Program-made: the position numbers and the translations under genes | Origin: Nocardioides sp. JQ2195 | Lineage (GTDB): Bacteria > Actinomycetota > Actinomycetes > Propionibacteriales > Nocardioidaceae | Length of the DNA stretch: 64,000 nucleotides | Direction: 5' to 3' | Assembly: GCF_012272695.1 (NCBI RefSeq) | Contig: NZ_CP050902.1 | Coordinates: 124,001 to 188,000, forward strand | Shown here: positions 34,428 to 57,848 of the stretch, in pieces | Layout of the letters: each line of letters opens with the position of its first letter | Numbering within the stretch: the first letter of the stretch is position 1 | The notes under the pieces: generated by a model | What the model was told of the DNA's origin: nothing | Databases searched by the model: none | What the model saw: the letters and a program-made list of their open reading frames with translations, nothing else

Positions 34428-34439
34428 GTCGTGGGCCGG

Positions 34440-34480
34440 GGTGGTTTCGAGACGGCTCGTTCCTCGCCTCCTCAACCACC
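34440..34480 (-). repeat. Dispersed palindromic repeat, family A
   Basis: GGTGGTTTCGAGACGG through CTCCTCAACCACC; first of two direct copies 53 bases apart between the convergent sirtuin and TetR genes. Its dyad could also act as a transcription terminator. Confidence 0.85.
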
Positions 34481-34492
34481 GGGTGGGCCCGG

Positions 34493-34532
34493 GGTGGTTT
34501 CGAGACGGCTCGTTCCTCGCCTCCTCACCACC
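34493..34532 (-). repeat. Dispersed palindromic repeat, family A
   Basis: The second copy, identical to the first except for one missing A in the closing arm (CTCCTCACCACC). Confidence 0.85.
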
Positions 34533-34556
34533 GGGGAGCTCGGATGCCGCGAGCGC

Positions 34557-35324
34557 TCAGCGCGCCAGCTCGGCCACGATGAACGGCTCGAGCCGGGGCA
34601 GCTCGTCAGCCAGGCCGAGGACTCTCGCCTGGTCGCGGAACATCTGGCGGAACAGCACCCCGGTGGTGGTCATCCGTGGGTCGACGTGGCCGAACACCTC
34701 CAGCGTCACCGTGCCGTAGAGCGCGGACCATGACCTGGTGAACACCCACAGCAGGCCGCGCAGGTCGTCGGGGATCTCGATCGGTGTGACCGGCATGATC
34801 GGGTCGCGCAGGATCTCGACGAGGTCGTCGTCGAGGTCGGCCAGTGCCGGGTAGGGGCTGTCGTACTTCTGCCAGATCTGCACGAGCAGGTCGTTGAAGA
34901 GCGCGCCCGATGCGGATGCCTCGGCGAGCGTGGTCTCGCTCAGGGTCGGGTCGATGCAGAGCGAGGCGACATCCATGTTGGTGAACACGACGTCGAACTC
35001 CTTGCGCGAAGCCAGTGCCCAGCGGCGGAAGGCCAGGGCCGCTGCCGTGATGCGCATGGCCGGGTCGTCGGCGGGGTGGGCCGCCACGGCTGGTTGGAGG
35101 TGCTCGGCCGTCATCGCGGCATCGATGCCGATCGCGACCACCCGCAACAGGTCTTGGTAGGACGCGACGTAGCGGTAGAGCGCGGGAGCGGTCATGCCCA
35201 TGCGCTGGGCCACGGCGCGCAGCGACAGCTCGCCGTCCTCGGCGAGGATCGCGCGCGCAGAGTCGACGATCTCGTCGAGGGTCGCCTGGCGCTGGCGCTC
35301 GCGTCGGCCGGGTGCTGGTGTCAC
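34557..35324 (-). CDS. TetR/AcrR-family regulator
   Basis: A 255-residue TetR-type protein. The DNA-binding head reads RRERQRQATLDEIVDSARAILAEDGELSLRAVAQRMGMTAPALYRYVASYQDLLRVV (about 6-63); the C-terminal part has the WHG-type pattern (RRWALASRKEFDVVFTNMD, LLWVFTRSWSALYGTVTLEVFGHVDPRMT). It is divergent from an MMPL exporter gene, and two overlapping palindromes lie between them, so it most likely represses that exporter and itself. ATG/GTG start at 35324, 90-99 bases from the exporter start. The ligand is unknown. Confidence 0.88.
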   Translation of the reverse strand: MTPAPGRRERQRQATLDEIVDSARAILAEDGELSLRAVAQRMGMTAPALYRYVASYQDLLRVVAIGIDAAMTAEHLQPAVAAHPADDPAMRITAAALAFRRWALASRKEFDVVFTNMDVASLCIDPTLSETTLAEASASGALFNDLLVQIWQKYDSPYPALADLDDDLVEILRDPIMPVTPIEIPDDLRGLLWVFTRSWSALYGTVTLEVFGHVDPRMTTTGVLFRQMFRDQARVLGLADELPRLEPFIVAELAR

Positions 35325-46358: not shown

Positions 46359-47807
46359 CTACTCGAGCAGCTGGCCCTTCTCGCCCAGCGTGACGTCGAA
46401 CTTCTCCTCGGCGCCGTCACGGATGACGGTGATCGAGACCTGGTCGCCGGGGCGGTAGTTCAGCGCGGTGGTGACCAGGCCCAGGCCCTCCGCGACGGGG
46501 TAGTCGTCGATGTGCACGACCACGTCGCCGACCTCGAGACCGGCCTGCTCGGCCGGGCTGTCGGAGGTGAACTCGTCGACCCGGGCTCCCTGCGCCACAC
46601 CGGACTGGCGGGCGTCGCCGGGGATGACGCCGAGCCAGGCATGGGTGGGCTCCTCGCCGTTCCTCAGCTGCTCGACGATCGGCTCGAGCACGTTGATCGG
46701 GATCGCGAAGCCGATGCCGATGGAGCCGAGGTCCCCGGTTCCACCGGACGAGTCCGACGCCATCCGGTTGCTGGAGTTCATCCCGACCAGCTCGCCCTTG
46801 ATGTTGACCAGGGCGCCACCGGAGTTGCCGGGGTTGATCGCGGCGTCGGTCTGCAGGGCCGGGTAGATCATCGCCTCCTGCGAGGCGTCCATCCCGGGCA
46901 GCTGCATCGGCCGGTTGACCGTGCTGATGATGCCCGCGGTGACGGTGGACTCGAGGCCGTAGGGCGAGCCCAGGGCGACCACGGCCTGGCCCACGTGGAG
47001 GTTCTCGGCAGCGCCGAACTCCATGGGGGTCAGACCGGAGACGTCGTCGGCCCTGATCACGGCGATGTCGAGGTCGGGGTCGGTGCCGACTACCTCGGCC
47101 GTGGTGCTGGTGCCGTCGTCGAAGTAGACGTCGAGCTCTCCGTCGATACCGTCGAACGCGACGTGGTAGTTGGTCAGGATCATCCCGTCGTCGCTGATGA
47201 CGATGCCCGACCCGGTGGAGCCGGAGCTGCTGCCGAACGCCTCGATCTTGACCACGGACGGCAGCGACTTGTCGGCGACCGTCTGCACGGAGACCAGGTC
47301 CTGCAGGTTCACGCCGCCGATGTCGATCTGGCCGGCATCGACCGTGGCGTCGCCGCCGCCTCCACCCGAGGTCTCGTCCTGCAGCCAGCCACCGCCGAAG
47401 CCGGCGCCTGCGCCGAGGACGACCGCGCCGGCGAGGAGGCCGATGCCACCGAGGCGACTCCTCGAGGACCGGGCGGCACGCTTGTCCGAGCCACCGTGGG
47501 CCGGCTGGTCGGAGTACGGCGCCGGTGTCGGCCACTGCGGTCCCGGAGGTGGCGCGTAGGCAGGCTGGCCGTGGGCGGGCTGGCCCGGTCCGGGTTGTCC
47601 TGGTGCGTGCTGGCCTGGTGGGTGCTGGCCTCGTGCGGGCTGGCCCTGTGCGGGCGGAGGGAACTGCGGTCCCTGGTGCGCGTGGCCCTGCGGGGCGGCG
47701 TACTGCTGGCCCGACCCCTGCTGGCCCGATCCCTGCTGGCTCGGCTGCGCAGCCGGCCGGACGTTGGTCTTCGGGTTGGGCTCCGGGGCGCCGTTCTCGT
47801 CGCTCAT
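46359..47807 (-). CDS. htrA: HtrA/DegP-type serine protease with a PDZ domain (PepD-like)
   Basis: A 482-residue membrane-anchored protease. Residues 1 to about 105 form a Gln/Gly/Pro-rich cytoplasmic region, then a helix (LGGIGLLAGAVVLGAGAGF, about 115-134). The trypsin-like domain has the triad His in TNYHVAFDG, Asp in DPDLDIAVIR and Ser in NPGNSGGALVN. A PDZ domain occupies the last about 95 residues (AWLGVIPGDARQSGVAQGARVDEF, AGLEVGDVVVHIDDYPVAEG). It degrades or refolds damaged envelope proteins. I start at ATG 47807; ATGs at 47816 and 47819 are alternatives. Its presence near an MprAB-like pair recalls the MprAB-PepD system of mycobacteria. Confidence 0.92.
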   Translation of the reverse strand: MSDENGAPEPNPKTNVRPAAQPSQQGSGQQGSGQQYAAPQGHAHQGPQFPPPAQGQPARGQHPPGQHAPGQPGPGQPAHGQPAYAPPPGPQWPTPAPYSDQPAHGGSDKRAARSSRSRLGGIGLLAGAVVLGAGAGFGGGWLQDETSGGGGGDATVDAGQIDIGGVNLQDLVSVQTVADKSLPSVVKIEAFGSSSGSTGSGIVISDDGMILTNYHVAFDGIDGELDVYFDDGTSTTAEVVGTDPDLDIAVIRADDVSGLTPMEFGAAENLHVGQAVVALGSPYGLESTVTAGIISTVNRPMQLPGMDASQEAMIYPALQTDAAINPGNSGGALVNIKGELVGMNSSNRMASDSSGGTGDLGSIGIGFAIPINVLEPIVEQLRNGEEPTHAWLGVIPGDARQSGVAQGARVDEFTSDSPAEQAGLEVGDVVVHIDDYPVAEGLGLVTTALNYRPGDQVSITVIRDGAEEKFDVTLGEKGQLLE

Positions 47808-51321: not shown

Positions 51322-52026
51322 TCAGGGCGAGTCCTTCAGCACGTAGCCGACGCCGCGCACGGTGTGCAGCAGCCGGGGCTCACCCTCGGCCTCGGTCTTG
51401 CGCCGCACGTAGCCGACGTAGACCTCGAGCGAGTTGGCGGTGGTGGGGAAGTCGTAGCCCCAGACCTCCTCGAGGATGAACGACCGCTCGAGGACCCGTT
51501 TGGGTCGCCGCATGAACATCTCCAGGAGGGCGAACTCCGTGCGGGTGAGCTCGATCGAGCGCTTGCCGCGGCGCACCTCGCGACTGGCCAGGTCCAGCGT
51601 CAGGTCGGAGAAGGTCAGCGTCTCGTCGATGAACTCGTCCTGCGGCACGACTCGGCGCAGCAGCGCACGTAGCCGAGCCAGCAGCTCCTGCAGGGCGAAC
51701 GGCTTGGTGAGGTAGTCGTCGGCGCCGGCGTCGAGGCCGTCGACACGGTCGCCGACGGCGTCACGGGCGGTGAGCACCAGGATCGGCACGTCGTTGCCAG
51801 CGGTGCGCAGGGCCTTGGTGGTCTCGATGCCGTCGAGCCGCGGCATCATCACGTCCATCACCACGGCGTCGGGCTTGAGGGTGCCGATGCCGGCCAGCGC
51901 CTGGGCGCCGTCCTCGGCCATCGACACCATGAATCCGTTGAACTCCAGCGAACGGCGGAGCGACTCACGAACCGCTCGGTCGTCGTCGACGACGAGGATG
52001 TGGGGCTTGGGCGCAGTGGTGCTCAC
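51322..52026 (-). CDS. OmpR-type response regulator, MprA-like
   Basis: A 234-residue response regulator. The receiver has DDDR near the start, the phospho-acceptor Asp in [12 protein letters not shown] near residue 56, the Thr/Ser in VLTARD and the Lys in YLTKPF. The C-terminal winged helix ([80 protein letters not shown]) is of the OmpR/PhoB class. GTG 52026 is the start; the frame is open further upstream only through repeat DNA. It heads the kinase and protease operon. Its promoter must lie in a region adjoining three 56-bp tandem repeats. Confidence 0.92.
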
Positions 52027-52112
52027 GACACCACTGTGCCAAACCCTCCTGAATCGTGGCTGAGAATGCCCCGAGTCGCCGCGCCGCCAGTCCTCGTTGG
52101 TCGAAACCGCCC

Positions 52113-52280
52113 CGTACGTCGCCCCCGCCGGTGGTTGAGGAGCGAGGAACGAGCGTCTCGAAACCGCCCGTACGTCGCCCCCGCCGGTGGTTGAGGAGCG
52201 AGGAACGAGCGTCTCGAAACCGCCCGTACGTCGCCCCCGCCGGTGGTTGAGGAGCGAGGAACGAGCGTCTCGAAACCGCC
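52113..52280. repeat. Three perfect tandem 56-bp units containing family A repeats
   Basis: Units at 52113-52168, 52169-52224 and 52225-52280 are identical base for base; a fourth is cut after about 19 bases (to 52299). Each holds a 33-base family A core (GGTTGAGGAGCGAGGAACGA..CTCGAAACC) and a 23-base filler CCCGTACGTCGCCCCCGCCGG-type. The identical filler rules out a CRISPR array. It lies upstream of the response regulator and of the HNH gene. Confidence 0.95.
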
Positions 52281-52352
52281 CGTACGTCGCCCCCGCCGGG
52301 CCGAGTTCACACCACCGGCAGTCCACCGGGAAAGATTCTGGAAATAGTTTCT

Positions 52353-52390
52353 CCGAACCCTGTGGAGAACCCCCTTTTTCGGGGGTTCGG
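52353..52390 (+). promoter_or_regulatory. Leader with mutually exclusive hairpins upstream of the HNH gene
   Basis: Segment CCGAACCC (52353-52360) and segment GAACCCCC (52367-52374) can each pair over 8 bp with the same GGGGGTTCGG (52381-52390). The second pairing has a TTTTT-containing loop, and a third stem TCTCC/GGAGA (52350-52368) overlaps both. It ends 28 bases before the ATG. This layout could be an attenuator-like switch. Confidence 0.4.
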
Positions 52391-52418
52391 TGTCAGTGCT
52401 CGGTGATGCAATGGGGGC

Positions 52419-53840
52419 ATGTTCGAAATCGACGCAGCACTGCACCCCTACGAGGTCTGTGACCTCGGCGGCGCCGTCCTGTTCGACCTCATCTCGGACA
52501 CCCGCGACACCGAGTTCCGCACCGACCGCCGCAAGGTCAGGTTGGCCTACCAGCTCTGTGTCACCAACCCCGCCGGCCCGGACGTCGACCCCGCGACCTG
52601 GGGCGACGGACTGCCCGGCATGGCCGGAGACTTCGACGCCGTGTTGGGTGGCGAGGGCACCCCACTGGTGGCCGCGTTCGTGACCGAGGACCTCGCCGCA
52701 GCCACCAGGAAGTCCCGGGAATCTGCGAAGCAGTTCCTCGCCAACACCCTCGACCTGCACCACCGGCTGCCACGAACCCACGCCCGCTTCGAGGACCTCG
52801 AGCTGGAGCTGTGGAAAGCCTTCCGCCTCGCCGAGGAAACCCACGACCTCTCCCTGGAGGCAGCCCGGTGGATCGACAACCACCTCCACGAGGGTGGTTC
52901 GTACTCGATGGCCGCGATGGCCCGGGCCGTCAAGCACGGCATCGCGAAGTTCCACCCCGACAAGCTCGAGGACGACAACGGGCTCCCCGGCAAGGACGAC
53001 TGGGACGTCGAGGTCGACCATGACGCGGGGGCTGAGGGCACCAGCACCCTGCACGCCACCGGCGGGTCGTTGGACCTGGCAAAGTTCGAAGGCCTCGTCT
53101 GTGATGAGGCGACCACCCTGGGACGCCTCGGCGACACCGACACGTTGGGCCAACGCAAGGCCAAGGCGTTGGGTGTGATCGCCGACCGGCAAGCATCGCT
53201 GGATCTGCTGGGGATCCTCGACCAGGACCCGCCGGTCCACCCGGAGACCGGGGAGCCGGTCATCCCGCGCAAGTCCTACCTCAAGGCCCGCCTGTTCGTG
53301 CACCTGTCCCTCACGGACCTGGCCACCATGTGCGCCGCCTCCGCGACTGTGCCCGGCGACCTCGTGGAGGGCCCCGACTCAGACACCGAGCAGGGTGAGA
53401 TCGGGGTGGTGGACACGAACATGTTCGGCCCCGCCACCACCACCCTGATCGCCGGCTACCTGAAGCAGCTCGGAGCCGATGCCCGCCTCACACCGGTGAT
53501 CGACACCACCAGGCAATGGGCCATCGACGCCCACGACCCGCCGCAGTCGATGCGGGACCAGGTCACCGAACGCGACCCCCACTGCGTGCACCCCTACTGC
53601 GGCAGGTCATCGAAGACCTGCGACCTCGACCACATCGTGCCCTATGACGACACCGGACCACCGGGGCAGACGAACCCGGAGAACCTGGCCCCCCTGTGCC
53701 GCCGACACCACCTGCTCAAAACCCACGGTGGATGGCGATACCAACGCAACCGCGACGGCACCTATACCTGGACCAACCAGCACGGCCGGACCTGGTTGGT
53801 CACCCACACCGGAACAGTCGAACTCACCCAAGAACTCTGA
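52419..53840 (+). CDS. DUF222-HNH endonuclease-like protein (REP13E12 type)
   Basis: A 473-residue protein with the DUF222 helical domain in its first about 350 residues and a C-terminal HNH motif: RDPHCVHPYCGRSSKTCDLDHIVPYDDTGPPGQTNPENLAPLCRRHHLLKTHGGW (about 383-437). The His-Asn-His core and flanking cysteines are intact. Such genes are multi-copy in actinobacteria and include the REP13E12 elements of mycobacteria, where phage-like elements integrate. Their function is unknown; nuclease activity is likely. The copy is framed by repeat DNA: tandem family A units on the left, one family A copy and two family B copies on the right. ATG 52419. Confidence 0.88.
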   Translation: MFEIDAALHPYEVCDLGGAVLFDLISDTRDTEFRTDRRKVRLAYQLCVTNPAGPDVDPATWGDGLPGMAGDFDAVLGGEGTPLVAAFVTEDLAAATRKSRESAKQFLANTLDLHHRLPRTHARFEDLELELWKAFRLAEETHDLSLEAARWIDNHLHEGGSYSMAAMARAVKHGIAKFHPDKLEDDNGLPGKDDWDVEVDHDAGAEGTSTLHATGGSLDLAKFEGLVCDEATTLGRLGDTDTLGQRKAKALGVIADRQASLDLLGILDQDPPVHPETGEPVIPRKSYLKARLFVHLSLTDLATMCAASATVPGDLVEGPDSDTEQGEIGVVDTNMFGPATTTLIAGYLKQLGADARLTPVIDTTRQWAIDAHDPPQSMRDQVTERDPHCVHPYCGRSSKTCDLDHIVPYDDTGPPGQTNPENLAPLCRRHHLLKTHGGWRYQRNRDGTYTWTNQHGRTWLVTHTGTVELTQEL

Positions 53841-53847
53841 ATCGACG

Positions 53848-53886
53848 TTGGTTGAGGAGGTCGCCCAGCGACCGTCTCGAAACCAA
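53848..53886 (+). repeat. Dispersed palindromic repeat, family A, variant
   Basis: TTGGTTGAGGAGG..CGTCTCGAAACCAA with a different centre (TCGCCCAGCGA). It is located eight bases after the HNH gene's stop and may serve as its terminator. Confidence 0.8.
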
Positions 53887-54000
53887 CTCCCCGTCAGGGC
53901 ACCGACACATCAAGCACCGGCCGAACACGTAGCACCACGACAGCAGGCCCACACCGAGGACAAGAACCCGGTGACTGGGCCTACTGCCACGCCCGGTACT

Positions 54001-54042
54001 GGTCTCGACACAACCGCTCGTGCCTCGCGGTCACTCGACCAC
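54001..54042 (+). repeat. Dispersed palindromic repeat, family B
   Basis: GGTCTCGACACAACCGCTCG..TCACTCGACCACC, related in design to family A but with different arms. Confidence 0.75.
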
Positions 54043-54073
54043 CGAACATCAGACCACTGCCACGCCCGGCGCC

Positions 54074-54111
54074 GGTCTCGATACAACCACTCGTATGCGT
54101 CGTGTCGACCA
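54074..54111 (+). repeat. Dispersed palindromic repeat, family B (degenerate)
   Basis: GGTCTCGATACAACCACTCG then a decayed right half ending GTGTCGACCA. It shares the preceding GCCACGCCCGG phrase with the copy at 54001. Confidence 0.6.
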
Positions 54112-54297
54112 TGATGTCGTGGTCCTTGTGCTCGAACACGCGCTGGCAACGGGCGAGGCCGATCGGTCTGTCGCCTCGGGTGCGCTCCCGTAGCTCCAGC
54201 TCATCCGCGCGGCCCTGTGACGGCATGACGCCCCAATTCCATGGAGGGGCGGGCGTACAGACATCGGCGCGCCCGAGCGGCAAGCCGTCGAGCGGCC

Positions 54298-55148
<851 letters not shown>

Positions 55149-55152
<4 letters not shown>

Positions 55153-57805: not shown

Positions 57806-57848
57806 GGTCTCGATACACCCGCTCGTTCCTCGCGGGCACTCGACCACC
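57806..57848 (+). repeat. Dispersed palindromic repeat, family B (best copy)
   Basis: GGTCTCGATACACCCGCTCG, then TTCCTCGCGGG, then CACTCGACCACC. CCCGC and GCGGG form an inner stem. It begins two bases after the aminotransferase stop. Confidence 0.8.

Follow-up and report, generated by a model that had tools for sequence, protein, structure and literature searches.

Why does a perfect tandem array lie between a response regulator gene and a nuclease gene in Nocardioides sp. JQ2195, and with which of the two does it belong? The array occupies positions 52111-52299 of the 64,000-nucleotide stretch that we analysed (contig NZ_CP050902.1, positions 124,001 to 188,000; hereafter the window), and it flanks the 5' side of the plus-strand nuclease gene at 52419 as much as the regulator. 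The initial annotation had treated it as a device of the regulator, which could alter the promoter or act as a roadblock. In our analysis the array belongs to a larger feature (about 52097-54113) that contains short palindromes, here called T1, and a gene for an HNH endonuclease of the DUF222 superfamily. We propose that T1 palindromes and this nuclease gene make up a multicopy unit with the array at its 5' end, and that the two form a partnership resembling that of repetitive extragenic palindromes (REP) and REP-associated tyrosine transposases (RAYT), in which the nuclease would recognise T1 and spread by cleavage and repair. The binding, the cleavage and the agency of the nuclease are what we infer, and in our judgement the proposal could equally well prove right or wrong. 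The components of the unit are as follows.

52111..52299, no strand: perfect array of period 56, 3.4 units (Tandem Repeats Finder and unit comparison)
52132..52165, minus strand: T1 palindrome 1, GGTTTCGAGACGCTCGTTCCTCGCTCCTCAACCA (pattern search)
52188..52221, minus strand: T1 palindrome 2, same sequence as palindrome 1 (pattern search)
52244..52277, minus strand: T1 palindrome 3, same sequence as 1 and 2, its end 142 bp 5' of the nuclease start (pattern search)
52097..52108, no strand: TTGGTCGAAACC, apparent remnant of the outermost left palindrome, longer in the paralogous loci L063 and L064 (inferred by comparison)
52300..52418, plus strand: leader common to paralogous nuclease loci (alignment of these loci)
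52419..53840, plus strand: HNH endonuclease gene, 473 aa, DUF222 superfamily (profile search, homologs, structure model)
53849..53884, minus strand: downstream T1, 9 bp past the nuclease stop, whose core GGTCGC-TGG-GCGACC forms a strong hairpin (pattern search, folding)
54001..54041, plus strand: T2 palindrome (GGTCTCGAYAC...CACTCGACCA), right end of the unit, in opposite orientation to T1 (alignment, pattern search)
54074..54111, plus strand: second, diverged T2 copy (alignment, pattern search)

The period-56 identity is unbroken over 52111-52299 (about 3.4 units), with 56 of 56 bases the same in the units at 52113, 52169 and 52225, and Tandem Repeats Finder (TRF) reports 56 bp x 3.5 with 99% matches and a score of 389, the top score of the window. 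The three identical 56-bp tandem units that the initial annotation described are letter-for-letter equal, and its distance of 87 bases to the regulator start is correct (GTG start at 52026, array at 52113). The dyads that it saw in the units are real but imperfect, the array copies pairing well in their arms only. It was also right to set the locus apart from CRISPR: the full 56 bp are the same in all units, and a CRISPR array was rejected because no unique spacers separate the repeats. An Rfam search gave no match.

T1 is a 34-nt imperfect palindrome, present once per 56-bp unit, of the form GGTTTCGAGAC-core-CTCCTCAACCA, or TGGTTGAGGAG...GTCTCGAAACC when read in the orientation of the gene. 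With fixed arms and a free core it has 84 exact copies in the source genome (G000, a nearly complete assembly of 2 contigs and 4.08 Mb) and the reversed control pattern has none; these and the other genome-wide statistics are based on pattern searches and fetched stretches. The 84 copies form 48 clusters, 16 of which hold at least two copies. Because T1 forms many clusters genome-wide, the array at 52111-52299 is one of many T1 arrays. The palindromes are dispersed, abundant and mostly intergenic, and many bare copies lie directly after stop codons. Two arrays of six perfect or near-perfect copies, L235 (G000:C1:2025097-2025425, 59-bp spacing) and L239 (G000:C1:2913028-2913379, 63-bp spacing), have no nuclease gene found nearby and are candidate strain-typing markers.

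Across genomes the arms of T1 are constant and the core varies. At least four perfect pairs are present in 26 of 47 distinct cores, compared to 0.7 in shuffles. For the inner stem of 20 distinct 36-nt copies, 97.7% of cells are paired and five pairs are changed on both sides, and slid controls reach 38-47% paired cells with at most one double-changed pair; the inner stem is the sole source of covariation evidence because the search pattern fixed the arms. A bare T1 pair is found between two genes at 34431-34557 of the window. The same intergenic site is empty in three relatives (G132, G104 and G107), and by this comparison the pair is a clean case of bare palindromes gained recently.

T1 is a covarying palindrome and also a regular, oriented component of many DUF222-HNH loci. 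The source genome carries six relatives of the window nuclease at 79-94% identity, plus more distant ones, and four nuclease loci, namely L061 (the window locus), L062, L063 and L064, share the array together with the leader on its right. T1 is present within 250 bp on both sides in four of the seven close nuclease copies, which amounts to eight flanks, with an upstream distance to the start of 142-143 bp. Random placement of the 48 clusters yielded a mean of 0.05 nuclease flanks, with a maximum of 2 in 20,000 draws, versus the 8 observed. All 17 T1 positions near nuclease genes in this genome have one orientation relative to the gene. The downstream T1 at 53849-53884 forms a strong hairpin as single-strand DNA (z -3.5), and a T1 with a strong hairpin is located 9 bp after the stop in L061, L062, L063 and L065, as well as at the matching place behind a frameshifted gene in L064. 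Three of the nuclease units end further out in T2, a family related to T1, in the orientation opposite to T1. The nuclease paralogs are mosaic; L062 and L065, for example, share 61-85% identity and then 95-99%, a pattern that looks gene-conversion-like.

T2 is a second, wider palindrome family. There are 146 exact copies in G339, a genome from another family of the class, and T2 therefore reaches well beyond Nocardioides. Within the window, a further T2 at 57806-57846 (GGTCTCGATAC...CACTCGACCA) stands directly after a stop codon. The nuclease leader contains a terminator-like hairpin at 52349-52369, followed by CCCCCTTTTT, which is largely conserved among the close paralogs and is a possible attenuator of the nuclease gene.

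Is the association of T1 with these genes peculiar to one genome? T1 is present in 61 of 147 Nocardioides genomes and in 13 of 394 sampled Actinomycetes genomes, mostly Nocardioides, the top count being 209 copies in G079. It was found in none of the 8 genomes without a nuclease match and in 61 of the 139 with one (Fisher p 0.02). T1-preceded nucleases are seen in about a dozen Nocardioides and related genomes and are as little as about 30% alike. In G057, whose nuclease is about 37% identical, T1 lies 105-107 bp upstream in 9 of 10 copies. The corresponding distance is 58-62 bp in 6 of 10 copies in G128 (88 bp in one more), 108-109 bp in all five copies in G091, 81-83 bp in G039 and 107-109 bp upstream of DUF222-HNH genes in G079, while nine copies of a different DUF222 clade in G354 have T1 259-266 bp upstream. 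The T1-to-start distance is near-constant inside a genome and differs between genomes. The nearest upstream T1 has one orientation at 37 of 37 intact nuclease genes (within 200 bp, 11 genomes) and at 9 of 9 in G354, or 46 of 46 altogether; paralogs are not independent, and counted by genome the figure is 12 of 12. This oriented association suggests that a nuclease family is partnered with selfish repeats of its own, a pairing not described before.

The window nuclease matches PF01844 (HNH) with 24.6 bits (cut-off 21.4), and the HNH motif residues C389, C394, D402, D404, H405, C427, H430 and H431 are invariant across 37 homologs. It has no match to PF02720 (DUF222), for which three of the four tested homologs from other genomes are above the cut-off; distant homologs in other genomes exceed the DUF222 cut-off and match HNH more weakly. 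In the predicted fold, a ParB/KorB-like helical domain is formed by the N-terminal residues 31-177 and an HNH domain by the C-terminal residues about 371-470. The AlphaFold models have a mean predicted local distance difference test score (pLDDT) of 80.6 (full-length protein) and 88.2 (N-terminal part). Structural neighbours of residues 31-177 are all of the ParB family on ranks 1-15 (ParB, Noc, KorB, Spo0J, SopB; Z 4.1-6.7), the first unrelated row having a Z of 3.9, and those of residues about 371-470 are McrA-, TagI- and IscB-type HNH structures (Z 5.2-6.2). Both sets of neighbours emerged from realignment only and not from Foldseek E values; for these models the Z values are middling and no proof of function. 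A domain type that reads palindromes, fused to a nuclease as the model predicts, fits the DNA evidence. A sequence search of the PDB with the nuclease found no relative, a phage and plasmid search found no close copy, and a defence-system library gave only a marginal match, to the HNH part.

When did the unit arrive? It is bordered by two genes whose order can be compared among relatives.

51322..52026, minus strand: OmpR/PhoB-type response regulator, a neighbour outside the unit (profile search)
54298..55152, minus strand: fructosamine kinase-like gene, which adjoins the regulator directly in relatives without the insert (locus comparison)

In G104, G107 and G007, all of the same genus, the regulator directly adjoins the fructosamine kinase gene and the nuclease insert is absent. 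Nocardioides sp. Soil797 (G132) has the nuclease at the same place, without any T1 array. Therefore, the nuclease unit had come to lie between regulator and kinase gene by the time the lineages of the window and of Soil797 split, and either the former gained or amplified the array or the latter lost it. The recent amplification that the initial annotation had suspected is supported as a local event by the identical units, by paralogous loci whose units differ in length (57 and 64 bp) and number (2-6), and by the orthologous insert of Soil797, in which no T1 array is present. Judged from such alignments, units and bare palindromes both appear and disappear at orthologous sites. Further upstream in the window, at 47559-47740, TRF detects short GGCTGGCC-type tandem repeats of 15 and 30 bp, which are unrelated to T1.

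How might nuclease and palindrome spread together? The nuclease putatively recognises T1 by means of its ParB/KorB-like domain, and its HNH domain putatively nicks or cuts the DNA there. With other copies as templates, repair of these cuts would spread nuclease and palindrome and lead to conversion between copies, and bare T1 palindromes would travel as satellites. Once the unit lay between the regulator and the kinase gene, its T1 copies would have slipped or recombined unequally with one another, giving rise to the tandem array.

A number of observations weigh against this proposal. The array copies are weak hairpins by themselves (z about -0.1 as single-strand DNA), their core GCTCGTTCCTCGC folding poorly alone. 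The ParB-like Z values are all below 8, and Foldseek with the whole protein and with the N-terminal part gave no match below E 0.001. A clean target-site duplication was sought at the nuclease locus of the window and at the pair of bare T1 copies, and none was found. There is no sign of simple homing into a T1 site that was already there, because T1 is missing from the empty sites in G104 and G107; these regulator-kinase junctions hold no T2 either, and site turnover could hide a recognition site. To these must be added the nuclease of Soil797 with its missing array. In the nuclease tree, 59 of 96 genes have no T1 nearby and the T1 label needs 11-13 changes; all nuclease genes examined in G106, G060 and G098 are without T1, and the T1-rich genomes G130 and G028 have few nuclease matches, none seen adjoining T1. 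A de novo hairpin search upstream of T1-less nuclease genes found none in G060, and in G106 3 of 10 such genes have an unrelated 24-bp palindrome 51 bp ahead of their start. Most nuclease copies of G106 (L156-L165) share instead, 10-18 bp downstream of the stop, the conserved hairpin CGCCGCCCG...CGGGCGGCG, which could be a terminator of the usual kind or a different palindrome partner. The outcome is a plausible and testable new type of nuclease-palindrome partnership.

The main rival to this partnership casts T1 as a cis-acting element that controls or insulates the nuclease genes, either an operator to which the nuclease itself binds for autorepression or a hairpin that ends upstream transcription; it would move as a passenger, and its bare copies would be leftovers or useful terminators. 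Such a role is in line with the fixed orientation and distance of T1 before the start codon, with the presence among the ParB/KorB relatives of KorB, a repressor that acts on a palindromic operator, and with the many bare copies directly after stop codons. We nevertheless consider it unlikely, since the 84 to 209 copies per genome are mostly far from nuclease genes and too many for leftovers, many nuclease genes are without T1, and a T run after T1 is absent. Control by T1 and spread by the nuclease may also operate at once. Less probable again, to our mind, are autonomous REP- or MITE-like (miniature inverted-repeat transposable element) repeats, by which T1 and T2 would be moved by another enzyme and the nuclease loci would be frequent landing sites or hitch-hikers. 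The same orientation in 46 of 46 cases and the near-constant distances are hard to explain by random landing, and Y1 (PF01797) or IS200/IS605 (RAYT) transposases gave 0 matches in the source genome and 12 other T1-bearing genomes (0 of 13 genomes; controls positive). In favour of such repeats, the T1 label is patchy on the nuclease tree, no T1-linked nuclease was found in some T1-rich genomes, and other families of the class carry T2 in abundance.

Two further explanations concern the array alone. The first reading of the locus, in which the array serves the response regulator as a promoter or roadblock element of variable copy number, has in its favour the position of the array 87 bases before the regulator start and the fact that tandem arrays can vary in length. 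We regard it as very improbable. T1 is present at 0 of 29 other orthologous or related regulator loci from related genomes, the conserved stretch directly 5' of the regulator (52027-52066) is kept, and the same array and its right flank are found before HNH paralogs elsewhere in the genome. An altered promoter or a roadblock is not supported by these data, and a promoter element as the main role of the array was rejected on the absence of T1 from the 29 loci. The array may have a side effect on the regulator, whose place in the interpretation is largely taken by the nuclease unit. Most improbable of all is an assembly artefact in which the array copy number was mis-estimated, given the near-completeness of the assembly (2 contigs, 4.08 Mb) and the many independent T1 arrays, each with a unit length of its own, in the source and other genomes.

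How does the T1-nuclease unit compare with known systems? REP sequences have a 5' GT(A/G)G head and a Y1 transposase partner (PMC2817692). Like them, T1 is short, dispersed, mostly intergenic and imperfect, has covarying stems, occurs single or arrayed, and is tied to a multicopy gene that it flanks. T1 has no GT(A/G)G head, however, its ends in the copies found being GGTTTCGAGAC and CTCAACCA, and its partner is a ParB-like plus HNH protein in a genome with no Y1 transposase. The arrangement gives a mixed picture: the REP/RAYT partner gene lies between inverted repeats, and T1 flanks the gene directly in G000, as an inverted pair at 7 of the 10 G057 copies (the downstream one with 2-3 mismatches) and upstream only elsewhere. 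Because head and transposase were looked for and not found, T1 is not a REP/RAYT member; by analogy, its pairing with the nuclease would work like one. HNH homing endonucleases are similar in being selfish HNH nuclease genes whose spread by cut-and-repair is likewise presumed here, but the window unit has no intron or intein and its empty sites show no visible recognition site. ParB, KorB, Noc and Spo0J bind palindromic sites and share with the window protein a predicted helical DNA-binding core; the structural match is weak (Z up to 6.7), and the window protein differs in being fused to a nuclease.

M. tuberculosis has DUF222-HNH repeats of its own, the REP13E12 loci; they rank with the most gene-converted loci of this species and are said to "lack defined biological function" (PMC13061034). 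The REP13E12 loci and the 13E12 family resemble our unit in that they are DUF222-superfamily HNH genes present in multiple copies, between which gene conversion is frequent (PMC13061034, PMC10589994). They differ in that a flanking palindrome family is unreported for REP13E12 in the open-access papers searched, the present comparison covering non-mycobacterial genomes. By analogy, the gene conversion of REP13E12 and its lack of a defined function agree with the proposed mechanism, and are no proof of it. A search of the open-access literature (subscription papers lying outside it) with T1 and T2 strings and DUF222/REP13E12 palindrome terms brought up no paper that had already linked a palindrome family to DUF222-HNH genes.

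What would such a partnership mean for this protein family? We tentatively suggest, and hold it to be slightly less probable than the partnership at this locus, that DUF222-HNH proteins are recognition and mobilisation partners of previously unlinked actinobacterial palindromes and thus a second, independent kind of REP system, in which a ParB-like plus HNH nuclease replaces the tyrosine transposase. DUF222-HNH genes, REP13E12 included, have many copies in many actinobacteria and a function that is still undefined (PMC13061034), and a palindromic partner with a fixed place and orientation provides a concrete substrate to test. If true, the mycobacterial REP13E12 loci, now without a defined function, would gain a role, and the REP idea, that of repeats kept by a domesticated or selfish enzyme, would extend beyond Y1 transposases.
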